From contig NC_135248.1 of assembly GCF_947623445.1 (NCBI RefSeq), positions 12,719,820 to 12,783,819 of the forward strand: a stretch of DNA of 64,000 bases, in the 5' to 3' direction. This document shows positions 13,282 through 52,720 of this stretch, in pieces; position 1 is the first letter of the stretch; each line of letters opens with the position of its first letter. Under the pieces are notes generated by a model. That model was not told the DNA's origin and searched no databases. It was given only the letters and a program-made list of their open reading frames with translations. This stretch comes from Clavelina lepadiformis. Its lineage: Eukaryota; Chordata; Ascidiacea; Aplousobranchia; Clavelinidae. Both the position numbers and the translations under genes were made by a program.

Positions 13282-13448
13282 GTCGTTTTAGAAACCCTTG
13301 GTGCGGCTTTGCAGTTAGTGAGTGTGTTCAATTGTGGCACTATACGTAAGCGGTTTTATTTAGGAGAGATTTTGCTAAATATTAAATCAGGAATTTAATA
13401 TTTCATTGCACGCGTAGGATCGGATAAAGTTAATAAAACTCAATAAAA

Positions 13449-16911: not shown

Positions 16912-17257
16912 TTTTACTGAGTTTTACTACCTTTATCCAATCCTACACATGCAATGAAATATTAAATTCCTGATCTTAAATGGTCAAATATTTTGCAAAA
17001 TCTCTCCTGAATTAAACCGCTTAAGGATGGTGTCACAATTAAACACACTCACAAACTGCAAAGTCGCACCAAGCGTTTCTAAAACGACCTTATAAAAGCA
17101 ATCCTCCATCAATAATTGACTACCATAACTGAATTCGCTGTTCACTTGAAGAACGTTGATCGACGCCGTTTTTATCAAGTAATTATTTGCTCTTATAACT
17201 GTTTCAGGATCCATTCATCGCTTCAAGTGATGAGGTCTTTTCAACATCTCTTTTACT

Positions 17258-20209: not shown

Positions 20210-20812
20210 TTTTATTGAGTTTTATTAACTTTATCCGATCCTACACGTGCAATGAAATATTAAATTCCTGATCTTAAATGATCAAATATTTTTCCAAATC
20301 CCTCCTGAATAAAACCGCTTATGGATGGTGCTGCAATTAAACACACTCACAAACTTCAAAGTCACACCAAGCGTTTCTAAAACGACCTTATATAAGCAAT
20401 CCCCCATTAATAATAATTGACTACCATAACTGAATTCGCTGTTCACTTGAAGAACGTCGATCGACGCCGTTTTTATCAAGTCATTATTTGCTCTTATAAC
20501 CGTTACAGGATTCATTCATCGCTTCAAGTGATCAATGTCTTTTCAACATCTCTTTTACTGTCGTCTCGATTATGCCCTCTTGTGACTTTCTATTCTACAT
20601 CACATTGTCAAACGGTGTCAGTAGAGAGCAGATCAATACCATTTTAAAGAATTCAATAAACTTGAGTTTCTCAAGAGAATGAAAGACACGGAGTGGTTTT
20701 GTGATTCCTGCGCGTTTGACGTCACGCGTTTCTTGCGTGCATTCTTGTCTTGCCTCTATTTATTGAAACAGAAAAACATTTGCGCGACACTTGTGTGTGG
20801 TTGGGCACAAGA

Positions 20813-25068: not shown

Positions 25069-28000
25069 GTAAGATTTTTTAAAAATATTTCAGGTTAGGA
25101 TTTTGAGTTATTTAACGCTAATTATATCCAGTTGAATTCATAATGAAATATTTGAAGCAAATTGTAACTGTATTTGAAGTTCTTGATTCTAATTATTTGT
25201 GTCAAGTGAGTTAGGTGTGTGTGTTTTGTACAGAATCTATTAATACTAAGATACTAAGTATACAACTAAGGTAATGTAAATGCTGCTGTAAATACCAGCA
25301 AGCTGATTTATTTCGGACTGAATGAAATAACTGGAATAACTAAGTTTTGTTGCTTAAAAGTATACCGACGCAAACCAGGTTTCAAAGAGAAGGTTTCAAA
25401 AAGCGTCGAAATGCAATTCCCTTTGACTAAAACATCAGTAATTGCCTTTTATCAGGTCGCGGCAGAAATAATCGTTTCCCCCCGATCACTCCGCAGGGAG
25501 CTATCAGGCGAAGGTCGCCAACTTTGAAAAAACATCGACCCCGGTCGCCATTTTCTGACATCACCGGTAACTTCCTAAAGAAGTTACGGCAGGAAACTTG
25601 CAAGCGCCCTGCTGGTTTCATAACTTTAATATAACACTCAGTAATCGTCACATTTATATAGCGTTAAGACTAATTTGAAGAAGATTTAGGCAAATTCATA
25701 AAGAAATATTTACAACCTCAGATAGATCTGCTGCCAGATTTAATGAAATTCTACACTTGGCTTGAACCGGAGCTAAATTAAACTTTTAAACAGACAAATC
25801 TCCAACCGCTGTTGTTCCTCACACCGTCAAGTCAGTATTTTGGTTTAAGGGTTGATGCCCAAACCAATTTTCGTATGTCAGTTTGTTAATTGGCTGTCCA
25901 TCAAGGCATTGAAATCTTATACCCAAGGGACGACGTTTGCAATTTGACGGTTTGAGATGTCGATGGCTGATGTCTGTCCAAGGAATTGCCATTGAGTGAG
26001 TTTTAGTCGCTCTTTCATTGACGTTCGGACGTTTTAAAAAGTCAACATTTCTGATTCATGCATGTCCTGCATTTTATGATTAGTTTATGATGTTTATGGT
26101 GTTCTTTGTGGTCACCGGTATAACTCTCAACATTGTATTTCGCATAATTCAACAAAAACTTTTTATACACAGGCTCAGCACATAAGCCGTTTTCGTCTAT
26201 TCAAATAGATAATGTGCGTACGAAATGTCTTGTATTAATAAAACAGAGCATGTATGACTTTAAGTATCATTACAATACACCGCACCCGTACTTAGGTGAA
26301 ATACTCTCCTTTGTTATGGTCTAAGCCACTGCGTTCATAATCGCTTGTAGTTCATATTAGCGCTCGTCCTGAGTCCGCTGTGTCACCAACGGGTATTTTC
26401 TAACACATGATTGTCGGTTTTTATCCTTGTTTCGTTGCATATTGACAAATGGAAATTGAATTAAAGTAGTAGCCTTTTGGCATCCAGCACGGAATAGACT
26501 CCTGCTAGGATGACCACACGCTGGGGCTCAATTCCTTTTTGTAAGTCGGCAACATTATGTAGTTGTGATTAATAACGGGCAAAAACGTTGTCTTGTTTTA
26601 AATTTATACTGACTTTGGAATGTCATTGCCGCAGAGCGTACGTTCTTGTAACTTAAACAGAGGAAATCTCTTTGCGGCGCTGATGAAGGGTTTTGTGATG
26701 GGTTTTGTTTAAAGGTGTTTGATTTTCAAGATTACATCGCTTTCATTTCGACGTCACGTACGTATCACATGACGTCATTACGGCAATAAACCTGTGAAGT
26801 GGGAGGTTGTTTTTTGCAGCGCACATCAAGACGATATGCAGGAAGACGTGATTGCTTTTCCCTCGTAATTACGCCGAAGATTGTGCGTTAGGTTTTGTTT
26901 CTTAGTTGTAACACAAAATACGTTTCACCTCGATTATGAAGACGAAACATTTTCGTTGTTGTCCGTTTATTTGAACTCTCTAACGCGTTCAGCTGTCACC
27001 ACCAGATCCCGTAGCGAAATTTTGTCGAAAATGCGTGACTACAATTTCAAATTATTTGGTGCAAAAGTATCAGTAACAACTTTCTTCGTCTTACCAACAT
27101 CAAAGCTACTTTCGAGTATGTTTGTCGTAAAAACAAAGCGCATAGAAAGGACGGATATATGGTAGGAAATACAATCTCGAGGTTGAAAAGAAGAAGAAAA
27201 TGTGCTGTTGCCAAACCATCCATTTATGAGAATTTTATAACGTCGTTAAGACATGTTATGGATCACATTCCGTTCATCGCTCCACCGCGTGTTCTGTGGA
27301 CATCTGCTAGTGGACATGCAAATTGCCAACAGCACCCATGCACTTCTGCTAGTACACAACAGTGAGTTGACGGTTCGATTAAAACCTGAGGTGTATGGCA
27401 CTGCATATCGGTTGAATGTCTTGTTATGTACAAGAGCCAGCAACGTATAATAACGAGATCAACGGGACTAATTAGAATGGTCCTTGGACATATTTGCTCT
27501 TCCTTGGTATAAACAAAGACATTTCAAACGTCAAGTGTCGTTTTGAAAGTGTAACAAAAGCGCTTTCAGAAATGGAAAAGATAACGTCGTTTATTCACTT
27601 TGCCACATACGAGCAGCGCTGGAGTAGGCTTGATGGTAAAAGGGCGATTTTCTACATTCACATTTGACCTGTGCCCGGCTCATCATTTTCTACAATTCGT
27701 TAAATGTTGTCGAAATCTGCTCTGTTTCCAGTGCTTTCAGTACCATGCATTCCTTTATTGTATAGCAGTCGGAGTCATACGCTAGCGATGCGTTCCTTCG
27801 GTTCAAATTCTAATCTTTATAAGGATCAGTTATCGTTACACGATCATTATTATCAATTAAAAGTAACATGGAATTAACCTCGCTTATTACAAATAGGTTT
27901 ATATCAATAGGTTAAACCAATCGGGCCGCGATTGCGTGAAGCAAAGATTACTTCAACCGAAAGTGATAAATAACCCTGGCTGAGGCGCTCAGGCTTTGGT

Positions 28001-31000
28001 GTGGGTAAAACTACAAATCCAAAGCAATCTGGATTGACTTGATGTAATTGCTTCACATTGGAACCGATGTTACGACATACCTATGTGAATGTTTTGAGTT
28101 GTTCTGAACTTGTATCAGTTGGTTCCGCTGAGAATTGGAATATTTTCATTAAAACTTGTTCATGGACATTATCTTGCGGCAAGAAATTTCTCCGAAAGTT
28201 GATATTTCAAAAAGCAATGTGTCTGTGTGCGCAAACTAATGCCATTTATAAGCGCGGGTGTATTGCGGCATTTAAGTTATCTATGACGTCATTCTTCCTT
28301 TTTTTGGTAGTGAAAGTATTGGGTTTTTATTTTGGTGTTATATTCATTTCCGCTCTTAAAATTATTACATCCTGTTTCCAGATTAATCACATTTCCTCCA
28401 ATTAAGATGCCAATTCGTGGCCGGCTGTTGTCATAGTTTGCTTTGCTTAATTCAGTTTCGAGCAATTTTATAGCACCATCAACTTGCGTGTGTGTTATTA
28501 CTGCTGATCACCAAAAACCTCTTATGTAGATAGGAAAATTCTCGGATGAAATTTAGGCTCTCGAACAACGTAGCTTTACTTTCAATTGCCCATCAAGACC
28601 CCGCAATTTACAGCCGTTCGTTTTCTTTACGCGCTTTCAGCGAGAGACAAAACTCAGCTGTAAGGTTCGTACGCTTTCTGTGTCGCCCTCATTTGCTATT
28701 CCTTCTCCCGCGCAGGTGGCGCAAATACTCGACGCTCCACGTCTTATACCAACTTGTTTTGACAATGAGCGGTTAAAGAGTTGGTCTTCGCGATGAAAGT
28801 TGGATTCGAAATAATGTGTTGTTTTATTGGAGGTTTAATTCGTTTGCTAAAGTTGGTGTGATAGAAGAGATTCTGTGCTATTTTTCTTAGAATTTAAGGT
28901 AAAATTGACAATTATCAACCAATTTTTTCTACCCCAAAGCAATTCTTTCAAAGTAACATTTCACAAAATTGTAAAATGTAGTTATATAACATAACCACAC
29001 TAAACCTATATGATAAGCACGTTTATAATGAAATGACTCATAGGTAATAATAGGAAAACAATAACGAGCGAGAAATTTTAATTCTTTCTCAAACGAAGAC
29101 AACTTTGCTGTTATAAAAACTATTCAGTGGAACACTTCTCAACGATAATTCATTCTCATCAATTTGACGGTGGATGGATGATGGGTGAAAGTTGGATGTT
29201 CTTGTTACTTTAAACTTCCACAGCTTACACAGGGCTCTGTTTTCATACAGCATGTAAGCTCTTGCGTGTTCTCTCCGAAGTGAGTCTTTGTCATTATGCG
29301 AGTGACGCTGATTTTAATTGAACATTTCTCACTATATTAGTGGTTGTTAATGTTTTAGGTTTATTCTGACACAAATGTCATCTGGTTTTACACTTGTCAA
29401 AAAACCTTTTTCGTTTAATTCGTATCGAAGCTTAGCTTTAACCATAAAAGACAACTCAGGTTTTTCTAGAAATATTGAAAACATTTTGAAGAAAATACGA
29501 CCGTCATTCCAATGCATTGCTTAAACAAACACACACTAAACATGGAGCGGTCTTCTGCCGGTCAACTGACCAATCGCGCTCAATAATCGTGAAGAATGAA
29601 GTGGTTTTGCCAATCACTCGGAAGCACTCAGTGTTACCTTCCAACCAGATATGAAACCTCTCTAAGTTACTGAAAACTTTGTCAAAATATAAGTATTCGG
29701 AGATTCTGTACAGGACAGGAAGTATTCCTTTGAGCAAAATAACAATCCAGGTAAAGGCAATTATTTCCTCGTCTCCACAGTTCTTGATTTATAACGGAAA
29801 TACTACATATTTCTTGTTATGTACAGTAAAATGTCGTGTTTCGCCGTATTTTAGATTTCGTACTTCTGCCAGTGTTCAGCAGAAGGGAACGACGTCGTCA
29901 TGAAATAAAAGACTTTCCATAATGCAACGGTCTGATTAAGTCAAATTGCGTCCACTAATTTGATTGGTCTATGCAGACCAATCGCAGGGAAGCTACAAAA
30001 TTTTTGCCTCATGCATTTCAACACGGGGTAAAGCGGAGTTGACTTAGATCTAAAGAACTGCGTGGCTGCTGGCACCAGGCACCGGCAAGCTCTGGCCTGC
30101 TTGTAACCTATCTAACTCGTTACAAAAACTTTCACACTTTTGTAGGTGTTTAAGCACCTTGACGGTTTACTATGGCACCAAAAATATGTGTAAAGTCCGT
30201 GTAAAAGTTCTATCCGGCGCACGTTCTGCGGCTTGGTATAGTTTATCGTAGATGTACAGTTGACTGACTGCTTATTCAAGAAGGGTGACCGTCTGAATCG
30301 GGTTGGAAAGTATGGCCAATAGTAACAGGGTTGCCGAATCAATGGCGTGTTTGATTGGTAAAGAAAAGCACCGCATTATAATCGTATTATTCCATTCAAA
30401 TCCACCGCCTTTCAACACCCCCCGTTGACCTGGACGCGAACCCGTCAGCGACCACTTTGTCGCTAGCAGTCGCGTCAGCCTGATTGATTGAGATTTGTTT
30501 CAAATTATTGACACTTGGCACAATCTATTTTCTTTGGAAGTAAGCCCGCACATAAGAGAACAAGCGATAAAGAGTATTATTAATAAGGTGCTAAACGAAC
30601 CGGCAAAAACTTTGGGCAACCATGTGAAACGGAAGGCGAGAAAGCGTGTAGCGGAAAAGGACAAAATGAATGAATGAATGATGGCTAATGCTTTCTTATG
30701 CTTTCAACCGGTACCCTGCTTTAGTTAAATCTTTTTTGCCACAAGCACATCCTAAGCCTCCAGCGGTGTATCGTTTGTTTTTGAAGCTAGTTTTTTCTGT
30801 TTGGGCAAATTAAATTGGGCGGAGCAAGGAACACGCGAGGATTTTACGGCTTGTCAGTTCCTGGACGGCGTGGGAGAATCCTACTGACTGCTGTTATGGC
30901 GACATCCGCCGATTTACAAGGTCTTAAACTTAAAGAAGTATTTCCGGGGAGAAAAATCAACGTTATGAATTATTACGACATTGTTGATACGTAAGATGAG

Positions 31001-34000
31001 AATATGCAGAGTCGTCTCTTAAAATATTATTGAGCTGAATTTCGTTAAATTTCATATAATATTTTTAACTTCATTTGTTGGACCTATCAAACGTTAGTTT
31101 CCGTACATATAGAGTTGTCTGTTGTCTAAAGGTGAATGACTCGATCGTATCATATTTAAATGTTGTCTAAGTTACCGCTATTTTGTGATGTCTCCGTTTT
31201 GTTACTATAAAAAGACTATTTACACCATTGTTAGCTACATTTTCAGTTTTAAGCGGAAATCTATCCATTTTAAAGTGTCACACATATCGCCTTTATCTTT
31301 AATAATTTCGTATTGATTTTCTCTTTTCAAAATTTTCAAGAAAATCAAAATTCACATTCATCGTCTTTAAATTCTAGACTCAGTGTCGGCAGCATAGCAG
31401 TGACTGAGGGGTATTAACCGTTCCGCTGCTATTTATACTCATTGAGGGTTCTAACCCTGTCATGTAGTAGTTAGGGCTTAAATCAATTACAATTACATAT
31501 ACCCAGGGTTGTACGTCGGACAGGTGCAGATTAGGCAATATGTGCCGTGTAATAATTAACGATTTTGTTTTCGTATTTCATAGGCCACGGAGGTATTAAT
31601 CAGCTGGGAGGTGTTTACGTCAACGGGCGTCCACTTCCAGATAGGATTCGTCAGCAGATTGTCGACCAGGCTCATCACGGAGTGCGCCCTTGCGACATCG
31701 CGCGGCAGCTTCGCGTCTCTCACGGATGCGTGAGCAAGATCCTGGCCAGGTTAGTGGTTCCAAATATCGAAATAGCGACGGAGTTTTAAGCTCGCAACAT
31801 AAAACGTTTTTGTACTGATTTAAACGGATTTCCAAAATAGACAATTTATTTTAGTCTGGCGTTAAATTAACCGTAAACTTCAAAGCATGTCATTCACTGT
31901 TTGAACTTTCAACTGATCCGATAAATAGCAGTTTTAAAAAAAGAGCTGCTTCGTCATGTACACAAAATATTTGAACTAAAACTTGCGAATTTACGCCGTT
32001 TACACTAAAAATCATTTACCAAGCTTTCTCAAAAAGGTGAAATGAAATCACCTTTTGCAAAATACAGTATTTAGGAAGAGTCTATATATATTGATTAATG
32101 AGTGTACTTTGACATTTAGTATTGTACAGTATCGAAGTGATTATCGCTTAGTTTTAAGGGTTACCTTGCTTCAGACCTAGTTCTAAACTTTTTGTTTCGG
32201 TTTTTATGCCACAAAATCGTAGAAAAGCAAGACAATTCCCACATTTGTACCACAACTGTTAAATAAATAATATCTAATAAAACTTGAGGTCATATAAATA
32301 TGTTATTGTTTCGGCAGCTTAAACTGCTTATCATTAATCATTCGCGATATTTACAAAATTTATAGATTACAGGCTCGGTCGGCATAAGGGACCGGCTCAA
32401 AATTATATTTCTTACCCAGGTATTACGAAACTGGCAGCATAAGACCCGGAGTGATAGGGGGCAGCAAACCCAAAGTGGCTACCCCAAGGGTTGTGGAAAA
32501 AATCTGCGAATACAAGCGACAGAACCCGACCATGTTCGCCTGGGAGATAAGGGACAGGCTGCTGAACGAAACGATATGTGACCAAGACAATGTGCCAAGT
32601 GTTAGCTCCATTAACAGGTGAGTACACATACGTGTAAGCTCTTGTGGTGCAAGAGTTATGACCATGAAATTACTATTTGCTGCTGTTCAACACTCCGACC
32701 TATTGGGGAAAGTTAAAAGTAGTTTTCCAACATAAGCATCTCATAAAGACTGAAAATATTTCGCTTTCTGTCAAATAACAGACAATGTATCGCATAACAA
32801 AATGGGAGATTGTTAAAGTGCAAGATGCTTTGTAACATTTGAGACCCCAAATGGCACCCTCAGGTTCGGTTGTAAGATGTTTATTGCTATTGCACGTTGC
32901 ATGTGGAGAAATAAAGAAGACATTTATGAACGATTTATGACGAACTGGAAACCTAAATTGGGTAAAACGAGAAACATTAAGTAATAAACAGCCATTTTCC
33001 GTCAAGTCGTGAGAACACCATTAACTTAAACGTATTTTACCCCTTTATATTTTACATTTCAGGGTAAACTCATATCGTTAAAGGGGTAACATAGCAGACC
33101 ACCCAGAAAATTTTCCGCAGATTACAGTAGTTAAAACCAGTGGACGTTTTGCCTAAAGTCGAAATTGCTTTACAGGTCTATTTCAAACCGGTTCTGCTTA
33201 AATCCAAGCTGGTTAAAATCGACTTATCGTGAAATTTCCTGACTCGGAACAAAATGGCGTTAAAGCATAAAAATCTCTTGGTCGACAAAAACGGGAGAGA
33301 TTAGACAAAGACCCGCTTCTAAGCCTAACCCTTTGTATGACGTGTACGGGTTGCTTTGAAGACGTAATGGCGCGTTAGTCGACGTCATGATTAACATAAT
33401 GCGTTTTGTGATCGTTCTAAGAATAAAGGAAGGGAGAGATTTAGAGCTGAAATATTTTGAAATATAACCCAAATAAATGGAGGCCTTTGGTCATGTGATA
33501 GAATTATAGGCACAAGGGCACCAAGGTGTCATCATCAGCTTATACCTTGGATATATGTAGACATGAATTACGCTGATGTAAGTTGCGTCTTATGTTAGTC
33601 ACAATTGTTTGTACATGTTGGGGTATAGTGTTGGTCTGCTTCCTGCTTTGTGATTAGTTTTTACTTTACCCACGGTCTTTAGTGGAGATTATTATACCAA
33701 AATTTATTTTAACGTCTTTTTAGCAGCAATGAGATATTTTTTCTACTCCATTGTTTTCAGAATTGTGCGCAACAAAGCGGCGGAGAACGCCAAGCATCAT
33801 CACCATCAGTTAGCTCACGTCGTTGGCATGCCTCCCTCCCCCTCACTGGGTAAGTTTATTTTGCTTTCTTGGGGCAAATAAGCTCGAAGCTCGGAGCCAA
33901 ATTCCTTGAAAAATTTAATACGATGGAATGTCTACGCTAAGTGTACCCATGTCTACACCTAAAACACCTCGCACTCGAAGTGAAGAATTTGAAAATTCGA

Positions 34001-37000
34001 TTTGAGAAACGTTTTGCTTTCAACGCTCTTTAAACTGGCAAAGGAATTTTTTATTAGGGCAAAGGAATTTACGAGCATATTTTGACATCAACCTGATCTT
34101 AGAATATAATATCCTGAACTTTAAGTTATATCAAACCCATTGATTTCGGTGATATGAACAAAAATCTTATGACAGTGACACTCTTACGACCGTCTATAAA
34201 AAACATAACCAGTACAGAAGATACGACTTTCTTTCCTGGTTTTTAGAATCACCTAAAAATACCAATTTAATAGAAAAACATTTTAACTCCAGGTATGCCT
34301 TCCACTTGCATACCGTCCATGACTGCAGACCACGATATAAGATCTTCGTATACTATCAACGGGATACTCGGGATTCCTCCATCCAATCCTCATCTTCTTC
34401 CACATCATGTCCACGGCTCTTCTACGGAGACAAATCCCGCAATGTACAATTACCCGAAAGGGGCCCACCTCACCCCTCCTGGCGGTGTCTCCGTTCCGAG
34501 GATGCAGATTTATCCTCCTCACCAAACACAAGGTACGATATGTTTTCCATCACTCTATCTGCGTTTCATTTTGCCTTTTTATCATCCATCTTTATTGGTT
34601 TTATGGCATTTTATTCGTTACGTGAATCAAAAAGTCGTTTACATTTACAAAGAAACGTAGTAGGTCTAAAGCAGACGAATTATGAAAAAAAACGATTTTA
34701 TTGCTAAATTTATGCTAAATTTTATTGCTTAATTTATTTTATTAAGCAAAAAAATCACACCACCCTACCCAAAAAAATCATTCTGGCCTCATGATTGATC
34801 GATCACACATACCCGCGCAAATGCGGCTACGTGTTAAATATTTTAAGACTTTAAGTTTGAAATGATGGAGCGTTAGTTGTCGACAAGCTGTTCATTATCC
34901 CGTACAGTTGTAGGCCTAATAACAGCCGCTTTTTACATGTTCGAGAGCCGTTCGTTTTCCTGTGGTAATTTCCTGTGACACCAAACGATTACAGAAAAGC
35001 GACTGGAAGAGGTCACGAAGGTATAGAAAGGAAGCAATAACCCGGTGTCTAACCCATTTCGAAAATTGCCCCGGGATAAAAGCGATCCGGGCGTGTTTTA
35101 GTCTAAACAGGGCAACGTTTAGACTGTCACATGATGCAAATTAACTCCAGGGCAGACCTATTTAAGTTCGGGTAATTGAATGAGACCAGTTGAATCACGT
35201 ATCGAAAATTGTTTTCTGAAAACACCAGCGGCAATGGGAACAGTAACTAGTTAGCCGGTACGCTATGAATCAAACGAGCGATTAAGTCAAGATAGACGGC
35301 CCTTCTCATTGTGGGTTGTTTACGGTGTGACGTCGATGGGTAACATCATACCATGGTGTTTTGGTCCCGCTATTAGCGTAATCAACATCACCCAATAAAA
35401 AACGCAGAAAGCAAACGTCGCGTCAATTTCTCAAAACTGTTCAACACCTACGTAATGTTCAACGAAGTAATAAGAAGAAAGGAGAACTGATTCACCGGCC
35501 AAAGAAATGGTAACGTTAAAATAATGTCCAACTGGGCATAGACGGTCGTTGTGTTCTTTCTTCCCATGAAAGTATAAAGCACCAACGCCCAAATCAGTCG
35601 CTTAATTATTTGATCCAATTATACGTGCCCGAGTAAAGACACGTGTTTTTGATTGTGTTTGGACAAGCTTTTTAAGGCTCGTTAGCGAAGGTCGAGGAGT
35701 GAGTAATGTTTGAATTCCTCACTCAAGTCATGCAATGGGCTATGATTGATGCCACCATAAATGAACGTCTTCTGCCATTAGCAGGTAAAAAACTTGAAGT
35801 TTGTGTATTGGGAGAGTTACTTCGGAAACTTTATTGGTCAATTTTACTTGGGCTTTCGTTTTAACCATATACGATAATTTTAAACTGATAATAAATTTTT
35901 AACTTAAAACTAAAGCTTTTTTACATGAGCGTTTATAAATGCAAAAATACCGAAAAAATTAGCCCATCTAAATTACCAAATACTTTACATAAGTTAAGCA
36001 ATTTCTTTGGAAACCTGGTACCTTCGACAGAACAAACAATATCGTCAAAATATCCTGACCATTTCGCTTTATGATAAAGTCTGAATCCTAACGCTTAAGC
36101 CTAGCATTAGTGGGTCTTAACCGTTTGGTCTTTAACAACCCGTTTGACTGCAGCATTACGTTGGCGGTACCTGACTATTCAGAAAAGGGATTTCAAGGCG
36201 ACATGTAATAATTGGTTTTACTTTCAATGATCTACGAAGGAAACGATAGTAAGGATCAAAGGGTGCCACTAGGCATCATGGGTCGTATTCAACTGGCGCC
36301 TACGGGATTGCTGGATTTCAGTCAGTCTAAAACACGTGAAAAGTTCGTGCCTTGTTCTTCTTGTAGCACCTTTGTACGAATCGGTGTAGACGCTTAATTA
36401 CAGCGTTCAATACACATCTTAACCGGGGCTTTAGCAAGACTTAATTTCATTAAAACAGACCGACATTAAAATTTACCGTGGCCTACTACATCATTTGGAC
36501 AACCACAAAATCTTGGACATCCCTTCAATATTTCCCAGGGGCTGCGAAGTCATTTTTCAGAATTTCAAACTTTATTAGCTCAAGGGTTCCAAGAAAGCAG
36601 CTGACAACAGCTTTACACGTAACGACTCCTCCTTTTAAGAATCTTCTGCTGTAGTAAAATCACCATCATCATCTTACTTGAATTATATGTCATGCGTCGT
36701 ATGACGTCACTTTTCAACTATCATCTGGTTTTTGTTTAACGAACAGGAATTATTTTTGTCAACAGAAAACGGCTACCCCAGCTTAAGCGTCCCCACAGAA
36801 GGGTCGACGAGACCTATGTACCACGACCGCTTTGCCTCAGCAGCCCACTCCCCACACCAAGCTAATCACGTGATATCGAACATGCACGGTCAGAGTTTGC
36901 AGGGAACACAACGCCAGTTTGCTGCAGGAGGAATGAAAGAAACATCTTTGGACAATAAGGTGAGCTGTTCAGTGAAACTTCAGAAAAACTGCGAAAGAGT

Positions 37001-40000
37001 TTTCGAAATGTATAGGGCTGCGGATAGCTTACATCAGTGTGCTACAGGTTAGGCGTTGTGGTGCTTTCAAGCTGTGACGCGACACGGGGGTCTATTATTT
37101 GCTTGGATTTGAGCTCAAAAACAAACTTTATTGTAACTCAGTACAACAATTTCTGGACAAGTGTCATATCATAAGCATCAAAATTCTTTAGTGGAGTCAA
37201 AGCTGAATATTTCTCTACTTTGTGGTGCAGCGCGGCCGGAGTACTGTGTAAATAAAACAGACCTAAACTTAATGAGCCTCACCTTAACCTCCAACGTATA
37301 TAATGGGGTTAGTTTTGGGTGAGGGTTTGGGTGAGGATTCTAGCACGTCACGTCTGTTGTTCCAGACGGAGTTATAAACTCGTATACTTGATAAAGTTTG
37401 CAGTTTCTAGAGTTTCTATTTTAGGTGTAAATATCACGAAAATATCAAATATCACGAAAATGATCCCACAGAGGCGACTTGACCGGTTATCGAGTGCCTT
37501 TTTTGCCACCTGTGACTTTTCTGTTGAAAAATCAGACAATGTGTCACAGTAACAGTAAAAAATATGGCCAAAATGACATATTATTTAGCGCTATTTTTCT
37601 GTGGTGCGTTATTGGAAACATAAACAACGTAATATGTTGTATAGTTTGGCTATATTTTTGTTATCAAATTTCTGACTATATTTGAATACAAATTCAAACG
37701 ACAGTGTAAACGCTACAAGCGCAAACATATTAAAATGTTAGAGGAAGAAGTTTTCTATACAGACATTATATGATTTATGGCCGAGTACTTATTTACCTAC
37801 ATCCTGTTCAGGTTTTTTGAAAAGAAATTACGGGTTCCAAAAATCACTGGCTTCGGTATTTTTTTATGTATTTCTAATAGATGTGTTGAGCCCTTTTGCA
37901 AATCGAAAACAAACTTGCAAGACGAGTTAATACAGGAACCGATCGTCAATTCATATTTAATTTGTTTACTTTGGTCCCAATAGAGGAGATTCTCGGTACT
38001 AAAAATATCATAAGCGATCACGATATTTGCCGATGCTTGAAATAAAACCTCACAGTTGCGGTTTTCCAGGTTTTAAAATTGATCTTCATCGTGATCCCGC
38101 GACAGCAAAATTTTTTGATCTTACAGTAAATGCTTTTGTCTTTTTCTCCCGACTCAGTCATCTTATTTTGTCTCTCGTTGTTTTTCGTTGTGCTTGTTTC
38201 TGAGTGTTTCTTTTAGGTTTCGTGCAGTTCCATTATTGTTCCTTGAAATTCTCGAAGCCGCTTTTGAAGGAGGAAATATAAAGAAACAAAACCTTTTGTT
38301 ACTTCTTTTATCTCGATAATAAAGCCCCTTTCTTGTTTCGCGATAATCATGGGTAAATATTATCCTACTGGATGGTGCCAACAAAAGGGGGTGCGCGTTT
38401 TAGACCCTATAATTTAAGCGCGAAGACAATCTTCCTACATTCTATAAAGATCATTTTTGCGCTGAGGAAGCGACATAAGGAAAGAATTCTTTGCCAAAGC
38501 ACGAATCTTCCCTAAGACCTATTATTTTGTTTGGAATAACATATAACCGTTATGTCCGTATATTGTTTTGAAATAGTACTGGAAAATTTACGCTTCTTGT
38601 GCCTTTTCAATACAAGCAGTAGTATTGTTGTTAAATTATTTTTCATAATTACACCAACACGACTTTGCATTCAAATGAATGGTGAATGCTTGTACCTTGT
38701 ATTTCGAAATCTAGTTTATTTTATCAGGACCTAAAGTCTAAAGTGTTTCAAAGGCATAGAAACCTTAACGATTTTTTAAATATTTCAGGCGACCAACCGA
38801 AGCGAATACGATACGTTCGGACAGTGTGGGACAATGGTCCCCCGCACCACGGCACCTGCCAGTACCGCCTGCGGGAGTTTGCACCAATCTCGCCCGGAGA
38901 GCTCTTCAGCAATCTACACAGGTACAGTAGGGTGGTTTTTAATTACGTCATCCTCATTACGTCATGCCTGTGTCATGTAGACGTTGTCTGTGAAGTCACG
39001 ACAGTTATGATTGTAGTAACGTACGTTTCATGAAATGAAGTTTAGTAAGTTTCATGATGTAATGAACCCATGAGAATATTAGGGTTCCGTTGGCCTCAAG
39101 TCACCCGCTTCACCCTGTTCATCACCCACAGGTAGTAGCGGTCAAATTGGAAGTGAACGTGATCGGGTTATTAGCATTAAAGAGGAAACCGATGATTTGG
39201 GGGCAACTGTGACCCCAGCTGCAAAACACCTCAACACCAATGCAATCGATAAATTGAACCCAATCTCGCAGTACCCCCAAGTTGTTAGTTCACCCCACAC
39301 ACCCCGCCCAGCATCGCACGAACCCCAACTCACCACGATGCAACCCATCGACCCCGCAGCTAACCAACCTACCAGACCTAACCAACCTGGGGATTCCCTG
39401 CAGACTGCCCCAGGGGTACACTCCGGTACTATTGCGAGTACGGTACCAACCCAACAAGAACCTACACCAGTACAATACCAACCTCCTAAACCCGCTGCTC
39501 CAATAGAGATTTCGTCATCTTACCAACCGTTTCTTTACCCCACTTCTCAAGCTCTTCCGACGACAAACATGGGGCCCGGCTACTCTCCTTTTGCCCCTGG
39601 TTACGCACACGATCCCGCATTCGTGATGCATCCTAACCAAAACCATGCTCCCAACCAACCGTTTTTCCCCGCCTTGCCCCCGAATGATCATCGGGATCCA
39701 AACCAATCCTCTCCTTCGTGCCCCTCCCTCCCCCCGGTCCCGTCATTCCTGCACGGTTCATCTCATCCAAATTATCATCATCATGCTCACTACGCTCCAT
39801 CGACATCTTCTAATCAAACACAACTCTCAGGTAGTTCTTTCATTCGTAGTTGTCTTAAACACTAACTCTGTTCTACATACCACATGTTCCTTTATGTTGA
39901 CTGGGTAGTGTCATTTTGGTTGTGTTAATGTGCTTGATTTTTATGGTTTTAGTGGTTACGTTTATGTGACCTTTTTGACTTTTTTATTACTTCATAAATC

Positions 40001-42510
40001 ACTTTGCCTCTCTCTGTACAAAACATTTTTTTTATGGGCTGAGATCTAAGGTTGTGCGCAGACGACAACTTAAACAGCGTTATAACTGTAAAATGCAGCC
40101 AAGCGTCGGTAGAGCAATTGAGTCCAAAATTAAAAGATTTCTGAACCACTTGGGAACCTGACAGCGATTTCATGTATAGCGATAAATAAAATAATGACTG
40201 TGATCTGTAAAAAAGATAATATTTCAGCCGCACAGCAATCGTTGATTACTTCTTCTAGCTTTTTAATTTTTGTTTTAACAGATTTACACCCGACATCTTA
40301 GTTGGTTGTCAAGCTTATGATTACAGTTGAGTGGGTACCCGGTGACCCTCGCAGTAAGTCGCATGATACCAACTACACGCTTGCACCTGTTTAAGCGAAA
40401 ATTTAACCCAGAACTTACTGAATTTACTTCCGCAGTTGTGGGTGAAACATTAAGTTCTGGAAATGGTTGAAAACCGGGTTAAACTGTATAGCTGTAGTTT
40501 GCGTTTTTCATTTTTTCAACCAAATCTTGAATTCGCTCTTGTATAAGTTCTATGTTTTAGCTACAATAACATCACAATCAAAAATTTTGTAAAATCTTTC
40601 TGTGTACAGTATTTCCTATAAAAAAATTTAATAAATATTTAAATAAATTTTCTACAAAAAGGAATCCAAATTTTAAAGTAATTTTGCCAAAAACACTTTT
40701 TGTTTTGCCTTTAAACCGGCAGACTTGTTCACGGGACACTCACTTATCAATGTTTCGAAGTCGCAGCGCTTTCATTACGACTGGTGCCTATTCTGCAGAT
40801 CTAGTGCCAATAGGATGTTAGATTTGCCTAATTTTAGTATATGATAGTAATATAAGGTAACCCTAAATATGTGGAACACAAAACATAAATAAACTCATTG
40901 AGATTTTATAGCTTAATGGGTTTTGGTAAATATCAGCGTTTTTAAAATTGGGGCCACGGGACAACTTCTGCGCCCACCCCAAGGCACAAAAGGATAAGTT
41001 TCTGCCACCATTTTGGAAAAGCGAAAACTTGAAAACGAAATGGTTTTCATCTGATTAAGGCCTGATACGTCACGGCAAAGCTATGCACATTTTTTAATTT
41101 AAATTTAACATTATAAGATTAACCTTTCATGTATTTTCGGGAAATTTTGCGTGCAAGGAGAATAAGCCTGTTTTTTGTTATAAAAATAACCGTTATTTAA
41201 ATCACCTGCGATTTTCGTTTGTGGGTGACGTACTTTTGCGACGTGCTCCTACGTAAACTCTGTCTACTTTTGTGCGGGGGGAAGAACGTAATTTTTAAGC
41301 AAGGCAGCAATTTTGCGGGATTACTCAACGACCTAGCAGCACCAAAAAGAGACATTATTACGAAACAGGAGCGAGCTGTGTTATCAGGATAAACCTAATT
41401 ACGGCATTCTAAAAGAGCTTTGTGAGGTAATAAGGCGATCGTTGAGATACGACAGAAGACAATATTTAGAGTGGGACGCAAGTTAATCCCTGTGGTTGAT
41501 GGCTTCATGTTATGTATTTTTACGGGGCTTAAGGATGTTTTTGCAGAAAATCTTCATCGGTCTTGTTTTCATTTTTATTTTCCTTTGCTTGCTTTTTTTA
41601 ACTATACTCACTTACTGTTTTTTCTCTCTTTCTAAAAGTGAAGCTTTTTGTCGTATATTTTTGAACATTTTACGCAAATTTAACTCTAAATTTTCAGTCT
41701 TGCCTCACCAAGATCCGAACAGAAGCGAAGGATGTGACGTAGCAAACGGAAGTCCATCCTGCGTCCCCACTACATCACTTCCGTCAACTTGTGATAACAA
41801 TGCCTATTCTGACGTCAACAATCCAGCTTCGTATTCCGCGATAAAGACATCATCACAGAAAACACCTCTACCGCCAGCTACCGATCACTCTCTTTATGGT
41901 AAGTTGACCACAACGAACTGCTCGCAACGAATAAATTACTGTTTTCATGGACTCGCATATTAATTATTTGCTGGCTCCATTTACAATACAGAATGTTCAG
42001 TAAAGGTTTTGTAACGTCACGTAGCAAAGGTTTGAAGTAAACAGAGTTACTCTTCCCTGACAGGCAGCAATTACCCAGACCAGCGAAGCGCGAGGCACCC
42101 CTATACAGGCTACAACGAATCATGGAAAATCACTCAACCGCCCGTTTTCGGTGAGTTTTTTTTGGGCGTTGGAGAGTAATTTCAAGGTTATTTTAGTTGG
42201 TTTGGTTGGATTTATAGTTTTGTAAACAATTAGTTATACATTTACGGACAATTGACAATAGATTTACAAAGAAATATTTATAAGTCATTACTTTAATGGG
42301 AAATGTTGGTATATATAGAAAAAATTACAGCTCCAACAAACATTTAACATAAAATGACATTTAATCAAGAAAATCACAAATGTTCTTTTGTTAGATGGGG
42401 CCCCGGTACATCTGCACGATGGCGTTGCGGAGCAAGATTCGAGTTTGAACAATTTAAGATTGCGCGCAAAGGAACACACGGCAAATATGGGACTAATAAG
42501 TGCACAGTAG
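24966..42510 (+). CDS. Pax2/5/8: Pax2/5/8 paired-box transcription factor, 11 exons
   Basis: Nuclear DNA-binding regulator of the Pax2/5/8 subfamily (in chordates: CNS regionalisation, pharynx, sensory organs). Exons: 24966-25068 (tentative), 31584-31749, 32420-32617, 33761-33849, 34293-34532, 36766-36959, 38789-38921, 39132-39830, 41698-41898, 42064-42150, 42395-42510. All junctions are GT/AG and in phase, giving 741 residues. The paired domain (about 35-161) reads [20 protein letters not shown] .. [20 protein letters not shown] and [24 protein letters not shown] and the VNGRPLP words place it in Pax2/5/8. Octapeptide YTINGILG is at 205-212. No partial homeodomain is visible before [10 protein letters not shown]. 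Exon 8 adds about 230 Pro/Gln/Ser-rich residues, making the protein much longer than vertebrate members (about 400). [11 protein letters not shown] (about 686-696) matches the vertebrate transactivation-domain motif. The end [16 protein letters not shown] is OAR-like. Exons 2-11 are firm; exon 1 is inferred. Confidence 0.9.
25069..31583 (+). other. Large first intron / upstream region of Pax2/5/8
   Basis: No independent gene is supported. Noted content: a GC-richer block at 25427-25651 that reads openly on the minus strand and may be a dispersed repeat; CRE words TGACGTCA at 26770-26777 with a second gacgtcac nearby; an inverted CCAAT palindrome at 29962-29983; and the weak alternative first exon at 30896. 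The length and these motifs fit a cis-regulatory intron. Confidence 0.4.
29962..29983. repeat. Perfect 9-bp palindrome of CCAAT boxes
   Basis: GATTGGTCT and its exact reverse complement AGACCAATC flank a 4-bp loop. Each arm contains a CCAAT box, one per strand, so the site could bind NF-Y or form a small hairpin. It lies 1.6 kb upstream of the first paired-domain exon. Confidence 0.55.
34533..36765 (+). other. Pax2/5/8 intron 5, nothing further recognised
   Basis: A 2.2-kb intron with no supported gene or repeat. The segment at about 35320-35400 contains a forkhead-like gttgtttac, a gtgacgtcgat half-CRE and palindromic accatggt; any enhancer role is speculative. The other Pax introns longer than 300 bp (31750-32419, 32618-33760, 33850-34292, 36960-38788, 39831-41697) likewise show nothing I can support. 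Confidence 0.4.
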
Positions 42511-43306
42511 TTTCAGCCTTGATCAAACTGGTGCAGTATTTTTCTGAATTTGACGAAGAACTTGCTTAATATTGCCAAATGTACGACGTTTGGAATTTTG
42601 TGATTTTTTTTCTTATTGTTTATGTAATATGTGTATTTCGTTGTGATACCACCTTATTACTTCAAATTACAGTAGAATGTATAAGTTAATTGTAGATGTT
42701 ACAAACTTTGTCTGTTCGCTTGTTTTTTTCTGAAATAGCTACTCGATCGTCTAGAGTTTGTTTTTTTTGTGGCAAACATGCTTTTTGTGTGCGTCTCCCT
42801 AAAGTTTAAGCTACCTAAAATCTGCCAAAAATGTTTTATCAAACCGCTTGTAGCAGAATGGTTGTAAGTGTATAAAGCACATTAGTAAGACTGCTTATAA
42901 ACGGTTGAATACCTTCAAATTAGACCTTAGATGTGCTAAAACACTGCCAATTTAGCCATATAAGTCACTTTGTATGGAGCCAAATTTGTTTCCTTACGAA
43001 AGTTGCTGATTGGTATTTTTTATAGTGTTTGTGTGGAAAGAGTATTCTGTATCTTTTTGCTTTACTTGTACATGGTTTGTTTTCTTACATTATATCGTAC
43101 CGGTTTTATTCCAGCTTTGCGTCTCTCTATTCCATGTCAACCACATTACGTCATCCAAACGCGTTACGTCATTGAAATCTACGTCATTTTCTTATACAGT
43201 TTGCTATAAATGCAGTAGCCATGCAGAATGACTGATCTTAATAAGGTCCCTGATAGTTTTATTGACCTTGTAAGGCGCAAGTGCAAGTTTTTCGACAGAC
43301 TATTTC

Positions 43307-43312
43307 AATAAA
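43307..43312 (+). terminator. Candidate Pax2/5/8 polyadenylation signal
   Basis: This is the first AATAAA after the stop at 42510, followed at once by a GT-rich stretch (tgtttgttcg) as expected downstream of a cleavage site. It would give a 3' UTR of about 800 nt. Confidence 0.4.
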
Positions 43313-44350
43313 TGTTTGTTCGTCTTCTAACTGTACTTGTGTCATTTAATTTGGAGCGACCTTGATAGACAGAAAGCCGAAGTTGTCTTGCTTATGTACA
43401 CGCAACAAATGTTAAGAAGCATTCCTGGTTGAAAACGGTTGAAAAGTAGACGCACGCTGCGTCTGAACATACAGTTCATTTCTGAAAAATTAAACCGCGC
43501 AATTAAAGGTTAATTTCTATAACCCAAGATCAACAAATTAACTGGTCACACAAAAGTTAAAAAAACTTATGAGAAGAAATAAACCGCTTTGAAGTGTAGT
43601 CAGCTTTGATTCACCAACCATTTAGGCGCTTGGTGTCTTTCAGCGGTACTAAAAGTGTAGGTAGCTTTACCGCTAGGTTTCAGTAAAAGTTCAAAATGAC
43701 CAAATTTTCCCGCTTTTCTCACTCACACAATTAATAAAAATAGAGACAAATCTGTCGGTGAGTGCTGGCGGTAGGACGTCGTTTGTTCTTTGCTCTGACA
43801 GTGAGTTTTTAACTATATGACAACGTCTTCTTTTGTGCGTAGTTTTCAATTATAAATATCATGAACACTCAAGTGTTACCCTGGTGACGTGCCTCGCCGT
43901 GAAGCAGGCCGAGACGTTTATTCTCGTTACGCAACACACGTGACCCCAATTATCTGCTACGACGGGTCGTTCCATTTTTGATTGTGCGGTGGACAGTTGC
44001 TTTGTTTGAGAATAAATAATCGAGCTAAAGCGTACAGTCTCGTTCATTAGAAAATGCGAAAACGTATTTGTCATTTGTCTACAACAAGGGTAGGTCCTTT
44101 TTGGAAGAATGTACACTTTTGTTCACTTCACGTTCAAATGAGCTGAACATCCTGAAATATTGCTCACCAGACCCTAATTAAGCTTCGGTTCGTTCCTTTT
44201 TGGTAGATTTTCCTTTGTTTTTGTGTTGATTGTTATTTCTTTGCTGATATTCAAACGAGGTAATATTGTTTTCATTTTGCTTTTGATTGATCGACAATTA
44301 ACACTGCTCTTTAGCGCTTTGGTGTCGAAAAGTTACTGAAGAAACAACTC
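43313..44350. other. Intergenic, nothing recognised
   Basis: No gene or repeat is supported between the Pax 3' end and the first duplicated promoter segment. Confidence 0.45.
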
Positions 44351-45447
44351 AAACGATGACGCTTTTAAACTAAAGTGTGTATAAAAATAGATTTGTTACC
44401 ATCATCAAGTCAAAGCCAGCCATGCCAAATAAGTGTGGAATAAGAATGCACGGGCGAGGCAGTATTATATAACGAACGAATGCCAGATAATTTTATGTAG
44501 TTGGAAAGTCTGATGTTTGCAGCGAAATTTATCGCCTGCGAGAAAATCATAACAAATGTGATTTCTGCAAATTTCCACCAAAAACGTTTTTGATTGAAAA
44601 AGCAAAATTTATCGCTTTCTCTTGACTTAGTACGGAGCGAATTGTTCGCAGTGTATAATGATAGGGCAGCCTTATAACATTAACCAAAATATAAACAAAT
44701 ATCATAGCACCGTTGTCCAACTGCAAAAACATCTTTGCGCTCAAAGTTCTGGCCCTGGCCCATTTAACCTCAAATGAAAATAGGCATTCTAGAATCTAGA
44801 ATACAAAATCTACGAGAATCATATCATTACGCAGTCGAATCCAGAATTACGAGACTAAGTAGTTCCACGTGTCAAAATAAAACTTTCCACTCCTTTTTCT
44901 TATTTCTTTATTATCTTTACGAGCAGTCGAGCATAACGATCACGTGTATCGCGCATGATACAAGGCTGATTGCAAGAATGTCTGTCACGTGTCCAGCGCA
45001 TGATCAGTTGTTTCTTATGATGAGTATCTGGGTCATGGCATGTCAAGTCATGCGTACTTGGCGGCGTTTGTGTTTTGCATTACGTCATCATGTAAGCTCT
45101 TATAAAATATAAACAAGATATGGCTTGACACTGTGAAGGTTAACTTTAGTTTTCATTCTAAATAAGTATTCCAGGTAAGTCCTTATGTTAGAAAAAGCTT
45201 GAACATAAATGCTTACGAGAGATTGCTTTGTGCAGGATGTTCACGTCACTAGTCACAACAATTGACTCTATTATTGCATCATATGTGGTCGTTCTTCTGT
45301 TACATAAAAACTAGATCTACGTTTACCGGTTGTATCTATGTAAATAAAAAGCGACTTTAATTAAGAAAATTTTTATCAATTTTTAGAATAAACTTATTGA
45401 AAATTTATCTTAAACGACAGCTTAAGAGTACATGAGTGATGCTATAA
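44351..45447 (+). repeat. Tandem repeat unit 1 with TATA promoter
   Basis: The unit starts acgatgacgcttttaaac (44353) and the same words restart at 45448. It contains CACGTG and GCATGATAC words, then TATAAAATATAAAC at 45101 and, about 70 bp on, a donor CCAG|gtaagt (about 45173). This looks like a TATA promoter plus a short non-coding first exon. The 112-codon frame ending at the TATA box is conserved with unit 2 only as expected from duplication, so I do not call it a gene. Confidence 0.7.
45236..45304 (+). pseudogene. Relic of the transmembrane exon of the PPxY membrane-protein family
   Basis: After a tgtgcag acceptor the sequence reads MFTSLVTTIDSIIASYVVVLLLH, clearly derived from the exon that encodes TSLAVIIGSIIASFVVILLL in the two intact genes. 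It then ends in unrelated sequence after about 69 bp. No other exon of this copy is found nearby. It marks a third, largely deleted gene copy upstream of the intact one. Confidence 0.7.
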
Positions 45448-47035
45448 CGATGACGCTTTTAAACTAAAGTTTGTATAGAAAATAAATTTGATGCAATCAA
45501 CAAGTCAAAGCCACAAAGAAAGCGTCTAGCTTCTTTTGATAAGCCGTATGAGTTTTTGTACCAGGCGAAACAAGTTGAATACATGTAGTGATTTTTCAAG
45601 CTTTTTACGTATTTTTTTGCTTACGGGCGGTGTTGAAAGCATATTCTTTTCATTACTTTAACTAATTCTTGACGTTTTAAGTATTCAAATGAAATTACAT
45701 CATATCAGCGTGTATAAAGCACGCCGTAATAAAAACGCGTGCTCTCCATTTCCACTTAACTCCATTAATTTCGAATTAATTAATGGGTTTACGCGATTAA
45801 CTGGTCTACCGATTCACATGTAAACCAAGTTTAGAATACCATGCAATAAAATGTTACTTGCTTTTAACCGATTATATGAGTATTTGAGTCACAAGCACGC
45901 ATGGGCGGCGTGGCTGAGTTTTAATGGTTCAATGCTTATTTAGGTGAATTCCTTTAGGCATTTACTTTTACAAGAAAAGACTCACAGCGGGGCAGGTAAA
46001 AAACGTCGAAATTTACCCACAGTTGTGCAAAGCAGTTAAGGAGGTCAGTGCAACATTTCAAGCAGAGCCTGGTTTACAAACCAAAATCTGTCCGGGTATA
46101 ACTCTGCCAAACGTCGGATCTTGTTTAAGTTAGAAACACCGAATGTGCTGAAACAATCAAATAGTAATTGTGCGCGTAAAGCAGATGTAAACTAAGTGTG
46201 GAATAAGAATGCACGGGCGAAGCAGTATTATATAACTAACGAATGCCAGATAATGTTATGTAGTTGGAAAGTCAGATCTTTGCAGCGAAATTTATCGGCT
46301 GCGAGAAAATCATAACAAATATAATTTCTGCAAATTTCAACCAAAAACGTTTTTGATTGAAAAATGAAAATTTACCGCTTTCTCTTGACTTAGTACGGAA
46401 CGAATTGTTCGCAGTGTATAATTATAGGGCAGCCTTATAACATTAACCAAAATATAAACAAATATCATAGCACCGTTGTCCAACTGCAAAAACATCTTTG
46501 CGCTCAAAGTTCTGGCCCTGGCCCATTTAACCTCAAATGAAAATAGGCATTCTAGAATCTAGAATACAAAATCTACGAGAATCATATCATTATGCAGTCG
46601 AATCCAGAATTACGAGACCAAGTGGTTCCACGTGTCAAAATAAAACTTTCCACTCCTTTTTCTTCTCTCTTTATTATCTTTACGAGCAGTCGAGCATATC
46701 GATCATGTGTATCGCGCATGATACAAGGCTGATTGCAAGAATGTCTATCACGTGTCCAGCGCATGATCAGTTGCTTCTTACGGTGAGTATCTGTGTCATG
46801 GCATGTCAAGTCATGCGTATTTGGCGGCTTTTGTGTTTTGCATTACGTCATGAAGTAAGCTCTTATAAAATATAAACAAGATATAGCTTGGAACTGTGAA
46901 GGTTAACTTTATTTTTGATTCTAAATAAGTATTCCAGGTAAGCCCTTACGTTAGAAAAAGCTTTAACATAAGTCCTTATGAGAGATTGCTTTATCTCAAA
47001 CGACAGCTTAAGAGGACATGAGTGACATTATAGTC
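45448..47035 (+). repeat. Tandem repeat unit 2 with TATA promoter
   Basis: Direct copy of unit 1 (44351-45447). About 650 bp at 45525-46190 have no counterpart in unit 1; the segment containing the exon relic of unit 1 is missing here (gagagattgcttt joins directly to atctcaaacgacagc near 46994). TATAAAA is at 46864-46870 and a donor CCAG|gtaagc at about 46935. This is the nearest promoter to the gene at 47140. Confidence 0.7.
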
Positions 47036-50809: not shown

Positions 50810-52720
50810 GGTGTACCGACACTTAATCACGCGACACTTAATCACGCGACGCTTAATCACCGACACATAATCACTAGGACATTTAATCACGCGACACATA
50901 ATCACTAGGACATTTAATCACGCGACACATAATCACTAAGACATTTAATCACGCAACTTGGATACTTAATCACGCGACATTTAATCACGCGACACATAAT
51001 CACTTGGATGCGACTGCCAAAGGCTTCCTTGGTCTTTCTTTTAGAACTCCCCGACAATTGTTTTGACTCCGTTGCGCCGGCTTTCTCTATAATGTTTCTT
51101 TAAATCAACACCAGCTTCATAAAGTCTAATTGTTACATTGTCCGAAAGTATAACCTATGTAATATCTAACATTATTCTACTGTATTGTCACCGAAGCTCT
51201 TGACCAAAGTACCATCAAAACGTTACACCGTAAAATACAATGCTACTTGAAACTGTGTCAGAGCGTCGGTTTTGGAACTCTGGAACAATGCCAATGAATG
51301 AATTATTACAATTTACTATCACGACCGGTTTACAATTTACTATCACGGCTTTGGCAAGACAGGCTATCAGTCAAATGAAGGTGAATAAGGGTGAACTGTC
51401 AGCCAGTACAAGCAACGTCATCGGGTCTGTAAGCAGAGACTTGGAACCAGGTGTACTCATGGCGCTGCCAAAAAAGCAATCTTTGAAGCGGACCTTGCAG
51501 AGAAAACGTCGCGATATGCTGACTGCACACTGTACGGCCGCTCTACAGTCTCCGATGGATACTAATTTCACAATACCAGAAACATTCCAGCGCATGATTT
51601 TGCACGACTCTGGACCTGGAAACAATCGTCTGATTCTTCTTGGCAGCAGGGATCTGCTAGACGGTTTGGCCAGAGCGAAATTGTGGCTAGCTGATGGAAC
51701 GTTCAAGGTTGTACCGTCTTTGTTCTTTCAACTGTACACAGTACATTTTGAACTTGTTCCCGGTCTTATTCCTGCAGCAGTTTACTGCCTCGTTCAAAAT
51801 AAAACGCGAGCAACGTACGATCGCATCCTTGATGCAATTAAAACAATGATCCCCACTGCTGCACCGGAATGCGTTTTGCTCGATTTTGAGACTGCCGCAG
51901 TAAGTGCTTTCCGCACAGCATTTCCTACAGCAATGTTAGGAGTTGTTATTTTCACCTAACGCAAAGCGTCCTGCGCAAAGTTAATGAAATTGGCATGAAG
52001 TGTGACTACGAGTCTGATGACGAATTAAGAACAGCTGTTCGGTGTTTACCAGCCTTAGCCATGGCCCCTTCCTCTGACGTAGTCGAGTCATTTCTGATCT
52101 TAGCTGATAGCATGCCCGATCACGAGAAGATGCCTGAGCTGCTTTCGTATTTCGAACACACATATATCAGAGGCAGACGACGTCCGGGACGTGGTGAAAA
52201 TTACGGCTCAGCCATCTTTCCAATCGAAAGTTGGAATCATTACGAAGCCGGGGCAGGTTGCATTGCAAGAACCACAAATGCAGTCGAAGGTTGGCATTTT
52301 GGTCTCCAAGTGCTTTTTCAATGCCACCACCCGACATTGTGGACTTTCATACGGGGAATTGAAAAAGACATTCAAATGCAACGTGCAACGTTTCTGCAAG
52401 GAATTGCTGGTACTCAACCTTCTATTCCAATGCGGTACAAGGCACTGAAACTGCGCGTGCAAAACACAGTTGACCGTTATCTGTCAAGCGAGATTTCAGT
52501 CTATCTTCGTGCAGTTGCTTACATTTCCCATGCATAACATTGCTGTAAATTGTAAATGTAAAAAAATATTGTAAATGTGTGATTAAATGTCGCGTGATTA
52601 AATGTCCTAGTGATTATGTGTCGCGTGATAAAATGTCGCGTGATTAAATGTCCTAGTGATTATGTGTCGGTGATTAAGCGTCGCGTGATTAATTGTCGCG
52701 TGATTAAGTGTCACCAAACC
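50810..52720 (+). mobile_element. Mutator-like (MULE) DNA transposon, near full length
   Basis: A 1911-bp element bracketed by 8-bp direct repeats CATTATAC (50802-50809 and 52721-52728). The left end is GGTGTACCGACACTTAATC; the reverse complement of the right end is GGTTTGGTGACACTTAATC (15 of 19 match, perfect over the last 11). Each end continues into an array of TTAATCACGCGACA-type words (50819-51006 and, inverted, about 52578-52720), giving terminal inverted repeats made of tandem repeats. The interior encodes a MULE-family DDE transposase. An 8-10 bp duplication is typical of the superfamily. It is inserted beside an older repeat fossil, between the two membrane-protein genes. Confidence 0.88.
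51240..52537 (+). pseudogene. MULE transposase, interrupted by one frameshift
   Basis: Cut-and-paste transposase. The first block (51240-51959, 239 codons from ATG) carries LADGTFKVVPSLFFQLYTVH with catalytic Asp152 and LLDFETAAVSAF with Asp215. The second block, in another frame, continues CYFHLTQSVLRKVNEIGMKC and, from 51995, ends in ARTTNAVEGWHFGLQ with the third acidic residue (Glu). The C-x2-H motif (CYFH) sits at the junction. The single break lies near 51945, in ttaggagttgttatttt, where one or two bases shift the frame. The N-terminal FLYWCH-type zinc finger found in many animal MULE proteins is not seen; the protein starts close to the LPKKQSLKRTLQRKRR segment that normally follows it. 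One break and a clean target duplication suggest a fairly young insertion. Confidence 0.85.

Follow-up and report, generated by a model that had tools for sequence, protein, structure and literature searches.

Does the last exon of a Pax2/5/8 gene in the ascidian Clavelina lepadiformis encode a true OAR motif, and if so, was that motif kept from an ancestral Pax gene, gained later, or reached by convergence? The question arose from a first-pass annotation of a 64,000-nucleotide stretch of chromosome 9 (C9:12719820-12783819, hereafter the window), which had read an OAR-like tail in a terminal exon joined in phase to the exon carrying the Pax2/5/8 signature GYNESW, and had left ancestral retention and convergence side by side. 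Among PRD-class proteins, a 2015 review credits OAR only to Pax7 and to Pax3/7 homologues such as the oyster's, with loss from most others and an ancestor that probably had it (PMC4901127). An OAR on Pax2/5/8 is unexpected on that distribution, as the annotation had remarked in assigning such a C-terminus to paired-like homeodomain proteins and Pax3/7 and not to textbook vertebrate Pax2/5/8, yet it fits the proposed ancestor. We address the question within the genome of C. lepadiformis (209,060,895 bases in 95 contigs), the sole animal genome compared; positions are those of the window unless a chromosome is named.

Structure of the Clavelina Pax2/5/8 gene

Ten exons with canonical splice sites could be located (Table 1), and, joined in order, they keep one reading frame through 707 residues to a stop codon. 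The penultimate exon ends ...TTTCG/gtgag, with one base (G, 42150) carried into the next codon; the acceptor tgttcttttgttag precedes the last exon, which completes the split codon and encodes a 38-residue tail followed by TAG. The residues, coordinates, and splice phase of the tail exon are thus as first annotated. A frame or splice artefact as the source of the tail can be ruled out at the sequence level, all ten exons being in phase with canonical sites. We were unable to locate the first coding exon upstream, where three candidates were unconvincing. The exon encoding the PAI half of the paired domain is 166 nt long, a length also reported for the exon that opens the paired domain in tunicate and cephalochordate Pax6 (PMC4488758).

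Table 1. Located features of the Clavelina Pax2/5/8 gene (window positions)
Feature	Position	Strand	Evidence
Exon, PAI half of paired domain, 166 nt	31584..31749	+	Pfam PAX 102.2 bits, residues 1-57, scored on a 68-residue piece comprising the exon and some read-through; splice sites
Exon, RED half of paired domain	32420..32617	+	Pfam PAX 118.7 bits on piece from exon
Exon, end of paired domain and basic stretch after it	33761..33849	+	In phase, canonical splice sites
Exon with octapeptide-like YTINGILG	34293..34532	+	Translation, phase; octapeptide by eye, no profile
Exon, linker region	36766..36959	+	In phase, canonical splice sites
Exon, linker region; homeodomain remnant not recognised	38789..38921	+	In phase; protein without homeodomain match
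Large Pro/Gln-rich exon with ISIKEETDD	39132..39830	+	In phase
Exon, Ser/Thr-rich C-terminal region	41698..41898	+	In phase
Penultimate exon, Pax2/5/8 signature GYNESWK, 87 nt	42064..42150	+	Weak Pax2_C match
Last coding exon: OAR tail, stop TAG 42508-42510	42395..42510	+	Pfam OAR, shuffles, predicted helix
OAR match (42439-42483) and Pax3/7-like extension NMGLI	42439..42498	+	Pfam OAR; BLASTP to Pax3/7 and Pitx-like tails
AATAAA, likely polyadenylation signal, use inferred	43307..43312	+	Pattern scan; first of several downstream

The rest of the window holds five clustered open frames that resemble glutathione S-transferases and are spread over the two strands (4062-4706 and 13437-14126 on the plus strand; 16234-16923, 19532-20221, and 21324-22013 on the minus strand), three of which were scanned and match GST_N and GST_C, the other two being alike by eye; several of the five have long open frames opposite them on the antisense strand. 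A mobile element lies downstream of the Pax gene, seen as an open frame with a MULE transposase domain (51234-51956, plus strand, 33 bits). Two open frames of 114 residues each, closely similar by eye and 1.76 kb apart (44768-45109 and 46531-46872, plus strand), are probably a repeated element; a Pfam scan of one of the two gave no match with E of 0.01 or less.

Assignment to Pax2/5/8

The first-pass assignment of the gene to Pax2/5/8 is borne out by its paired domain, which in the 707-residue model is complete (profile positions 1-125 of 125, Pfam PAX 234.7 bits), and by the Pax2/5/8 octapeptide feature YTINGILG (read by eye). GYNESWK is present as well. In a comparison made within one genome and without a tree, the subfamily names of the compared genes being given by eye, the paired domain is identical at 100 of 123 positions to that of the genome's other Pax2/5/8-like gene, and at 90 of 125, 72 of 104, and 85 of 119 positions to those of its Pax1/9, Pax3/7, and Pax6.

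With E set at 10, the matches listed for the 707-residue model include no homeodomain, and a homeodomain pattern scan of window positions 28000-44000 was negative. A partial homeodomain is described as diagnostic of the Pax2/5/8 family, yet as even less conserved among bilaterian orthologues (PMC4625944), so that an unrecognised remnant may be present here. Judged by its predicted paired domain, the gene is a Pax2/5/8 gene from which the partial-homeodomain feature is missing.

The Pax2_C profile matches short pieces from the penultimate exon weakly (14.4 bits, profile positions 61-89 of 113, and 14.5 bits, positions 63-88; cut-off 28.1). No Pax2_C match was listed for the whole 707-residue protein, and a search for Pax2_C across the genome gave no match anywhere, control genes included, and carries no weight. 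The weak match stops where the penultimate exon stops, leaving the last 24 profile positions unmatched.

An OAR match in the last exon

A search with the Pfam OAR profile (PF03826), the check proposed in the first-pass annotation, gave 21.8 bits for the 38-residue tail alone (E 1.6e-4, profile positions 5-19 of 19), above the curated cut-off of 20.1. With the penultimate exon added the score is 20.5 bits, and within the whole 707-residue model it is 16.6 bits (E 0.007), below the cut-off; we take this lower score to be the length correction for a long protein. None of 50 shuffled tails matched OAR with E set at 10, a setting at which the HMMER filters drop most matches above about 0.1, while the real tail did. 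The claim of an OAR-like tail stands, with a profile score that passes for the tail by itself and falls short in the protein taken whole.

The match covers 15 residues and leaves profile positions 1-4 unmatched. From the end of its ..EH core to the stop codon there are 10 residues, which places it at the C-terminus, as in an OAR. AlphaFold2, run on the single sequence, predicts a helix over tail residues 11-36 of 37, with pLDDT of about 92 for residues 21-30; a search for the tail in solved structures gave no matches.

In a six-frame search of the genome the tail stretch scores 21.4 bits, above the cut-off, with E of 0.092. The cut-off was passed at three of the six places listed (10 candidates scored): the tail, a Pitx-like gene on C7 (L001), and Pax3/7 on C2 (L002), the latter two genes being named by eye. 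Set against 132 listed homeobox matches, three places over the OAR cut-off may mean that OAR is rare in this lineage, or that a loose first pass missed some.

That the last exon of Clavelina Pax2/5/8 encodes a true OAR motif forms part of the reading that we prefer below, which as a whole we hold at about even strength. The motif is of OAR type; we do not claim that the protein is a homeodomain protein.

Ownership of the last exon

It is very unlikely, in our judgement, that the last exon stands outside the main Pax2/5/8 transcript, be it as the last exon of another gene, as part of a minor isoform, or as untranslated sequence. Such a reading draws on the facts that the exons are predicted from sequence and that the chain begins after an unlocated first coding exon. 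Against it, the splice phase and sites of the last exon fit the Pax2/5/8 chain, an AATAAA lies downstream at 43307, and a pattern scan of the plus strand from 42151 to 46000 found no pieces of a vertebrate-type tail. Nor does a nearby paired-like homeobox gene offer itself as owner: with 150 of 192 candidates scored, at least 132 homeobox matches were listed genome-wide with E of 0.01 or less, not one of those listed lies in the window, and the nearest listed on chromosome 9 are at 9.89 and 15.20 Mb, the closer being 2.4 Mb away, so that the exon is unlikely to be the end of such a gene.

A protein search of the genome for a second copy of the tail found none, the one match being the tail itself (1 candidate scored). 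The RED exon, used to look for stray animal DNA among bacterial and archaeal genome contigs, gave no match there.

Comparison with other OAR and Pax genes of the genome

Two other genes of the same genome carry an OAR that can be set beside the tail. Specifically, i) a single BLASTP comparison with the Pax3/7 tail gave E 3e-6, with 8 of 15 residues identical and 15 of 15 positive, and the match, to the Pax3/7 segment LRMKSREHSASLGLI, continues past the end of the OAR profile; ii) a single BLASTP comparison with the Pitx-like tail gave E 8e-7, with 10 of 13 identical; iii) within the OAR core the Pitx-like gene is the nearer of the two to the tail, with 9 of 12 residues identical against 4 of 12 for Pax3/7; and iv) over the eight residues after the core the order is reversed (Pax3/7 4 of 8, Pitx-like 1 of 8). 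Identity at four of eight positions was reached by 432 of 200,000 random 8-mers, in a test chosen after the match had been seen.

Exon structure adds a second line of comparison. The Pax3/7 gene (C2, 20.356-20.367 Mb) has a homeodomain (match at C2:20362432; exon with WFSNRRARWRKQ), and its OAR is encoded by a short terminal exon that follows a phase-1 intron (donor 20366934, exon start 20367104). The OAR of the Pitx-like gene, by contrast, is read in a single open frame together with the second half of its homeodomain. The last intron of the window gene is phase 1. So is that of the second Pax2/5/8 gene (on the minus strand at C9:1.18 Mb; the penultimate exon ends at 1181273 and the last begins at 1181185), which reads ...YNEAWKMATN and then SGQPIVAVNQTATDSSSVPSAGDNKKN. 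No OAR was found on the last exon of this second gene, and its tail matched no Pfam family. Of the two Pax2/5/8-like genes that the genome was found to contain, one therefore has OAR.

Phase 1 introns are common. A small phase-1 terminal exon in three Pax genes, with junctions that are predictions in all three (window gene, Pax3/7, and second Pax2/5/8), would be the pattern expected from a common Pax ancestor with an OAR exon, and is not proof of one.

In the second Pax2/5/8-like gene (C9:1181185-1187407, minus strand; L023, L024) a long stretch rich in Gln and Asn seems to follow the paired domain; having retained YNEAWK with OAR absent, the gene is apparently a strongly diverged duplicate. 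Urochordates are reported to have two Pax2/5/8 genes from a duplication before the ascidian/larvacean split (PMC4488758).

Origin of the OAR exon

The reading that we prefer, with confidence about evenly divided, is that OAR has been retained in the last exon of Clavelina Pax2/5/8, where it most likely restrains transactivation. We infer both homology of the terminal exons and retention over gain: the phase-1 exon that follows GYNESW would most likely be the same exon as the OAR exon of Pax3/7 and as exon 10 (CRD2) of vertebrate Pax5, with OAR kept in the window gene, missing from the second Pax2/5/8 gene through loss or overwriting, and exchanged for other sequence in vertebrates. The last intron of vertebrate PAX2/5/8 would also be phase 1 at that point. 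Because the weak Pax2_C match ends with the penultimate exon, the OAR exon would stand in the place of exon 10; and because the Pax3/7 OAR lies in a like terminal exon of the same phase, with a match that runs past the profile, retention is favoured over convergence. Of the two origins that the first-pass annotation had left side by side, the ancestral one thus gains, although the core is nearer to Pitx and the second gene lacks OAR. Those two observations, together with the whole-protein score of 16.6 bits and the genome-wide E of 0.092, count against retention.

Convergence, by which a short helical stretch in a freely varying tail drifted to an OAR-like sequence, is quite unlikely. The motif is short enough to give it some weight (15 residues matched), as do the whole-protein score and the genome-wide E, but none of the 50 shuffled tails matches OAR, the motif sits at the extreme C-terminus, where OAR is located, and its exon shares an intron phase with the Pax3/7 OAR exon. 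A gain in tunicates after the Pax2/5/8 duplication, with Pax3/7 or a paired-like gene as the donor in an exon capture or gene conversion, is unlikely: it would account for OAR in only one of the two Pax2/5/8-like genes and for a core closest to the Pitx-like OAR (9 of 12), and a phase-1 exon can move between phase-1 introns with the frame intact; yet the protein search of the genome turned up no second copy of the tail, the OAR of the Pitx-like gene does not have an exon to itself, and the exon occupies the ordinary place of a Pax2/5/8 last exon. Regain of OAR is less likely than retention.

Retention can be carried further, as a possibility that we regard as somewhat doubtful: the ancestral Pax2/5/8 would have lost its homeodomain piecemeal while keeping the OAR exon as a free-standing tail, vertebrate exon 10 would be the overwritten descendant of that exon, and OAR would work without a homeodomain partner.

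Possible role of the tail

On the retention reading, the tail is probably a short C-terminal helix, as predicted, that tunes and most likely restrains transactivation; its contact may be the activation region beside it, the paired domain, or a co-regulator. A restraining role would be in keeping with what is reported of related tails. In mouse Pax5, exons 8-9 are reported to encode the activation domain, and the adjoining last exon, exon 10, a truncated form of the inhibitory domain that transfection had defined; the C-terminal domains may contribute to moderate auto-repression (PMC10509461), an effect nearer to the autoregulatory role suggested in the first-pass annotation. OAR itself has been reported as inhibitory in Cart1 and Prx2 (PMC2093940), and the PRRX1 isoforms PRRX1a and PRRX1b are set apart by the choice of last exon, which either carries OAR or lacks it (PMC11554955).

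We wish to stress that other reports point elsewhere. Deletion of CRD2 (exon 10) in mouse Pax5 is described as having modest effects on B-cell development, with changes in 36 genes, and CRD2 as taking part in activation as well as repression (PMC10509461). With effects so modest and mixed, exon 10 of Pax5 does not act as a simple brake in vivo, which counts against a restraining tail, as does the disorder predicted for the Pax5 C-terminus where a helix is predicted here. OAR is also cited as thought to act in activation (PMC4901127). And since no homeodomain was detected in the Clavelina protein, OAR acting on its own homeodomain cannot be assumed.

Novelty and significance

We found no description of OAR on Pax2/5/8 in a partial search of the literature, limited by subscription journals and perhaps by the indexing of names with slashes. 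Vorobyov and Horst, in work of 2006 on Pax tails, may have reported it already. The observation may be new, with a real risk of being already in print.

If true, Clavelina would offer a living case of OAR on a Pax2/5/8 protein without a recognised homeodomain, lending support to a proto-Pax that combined a paired domain and octapeptide with both a homeodomain and OAR, and making testable the descent of the Pax2/5/8 C-terminal regulatory exon from OAR. PAX5 is a tumour suppressor in leukaemia. Two Pax2/5/8-like genes in one genome, one with and one without OAR, form a natural comparison.

Relation to known systems

The Clavelina tail can be placed against three known arrangements. Compared with vertebrate Pax5 exon 10 (CRD2, the end of Pax2_C), it is likewise a last exon directly after the activation region, but the two last exons are unrelated in sequence by eye, and the Pax5 C-terminus is reported as predicted to be disordered (PMC10509461) whereas the Clavelina tail is predicted to be helical; a vertebrate-type tail matches Pax2_C to its end and does not match OAR. 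Compared with the OAR of paired-like homeodomain proteins and Pax3/7 (PF03826), it differs in being carried by a Pax2/5/8 protein without a detected homeodomain, in leaving profile positions 1-4 unmatched, and in its whole-protein score under the cut-off, and it agrees in its C-terminal location, its LR.(K/R)A(K/R)EH core, its tail-alone score over the cut-off, and its predicted helix. Compared with Pax3/7 of the same genome, it belongs to a protein in which no homeodomain was detected, whereas Pax3/7 has one; the two genes are alike in carrying OAR in a small last exon, in the phase-1 intron through which that exon is entered, and in the common extension ..GLI.
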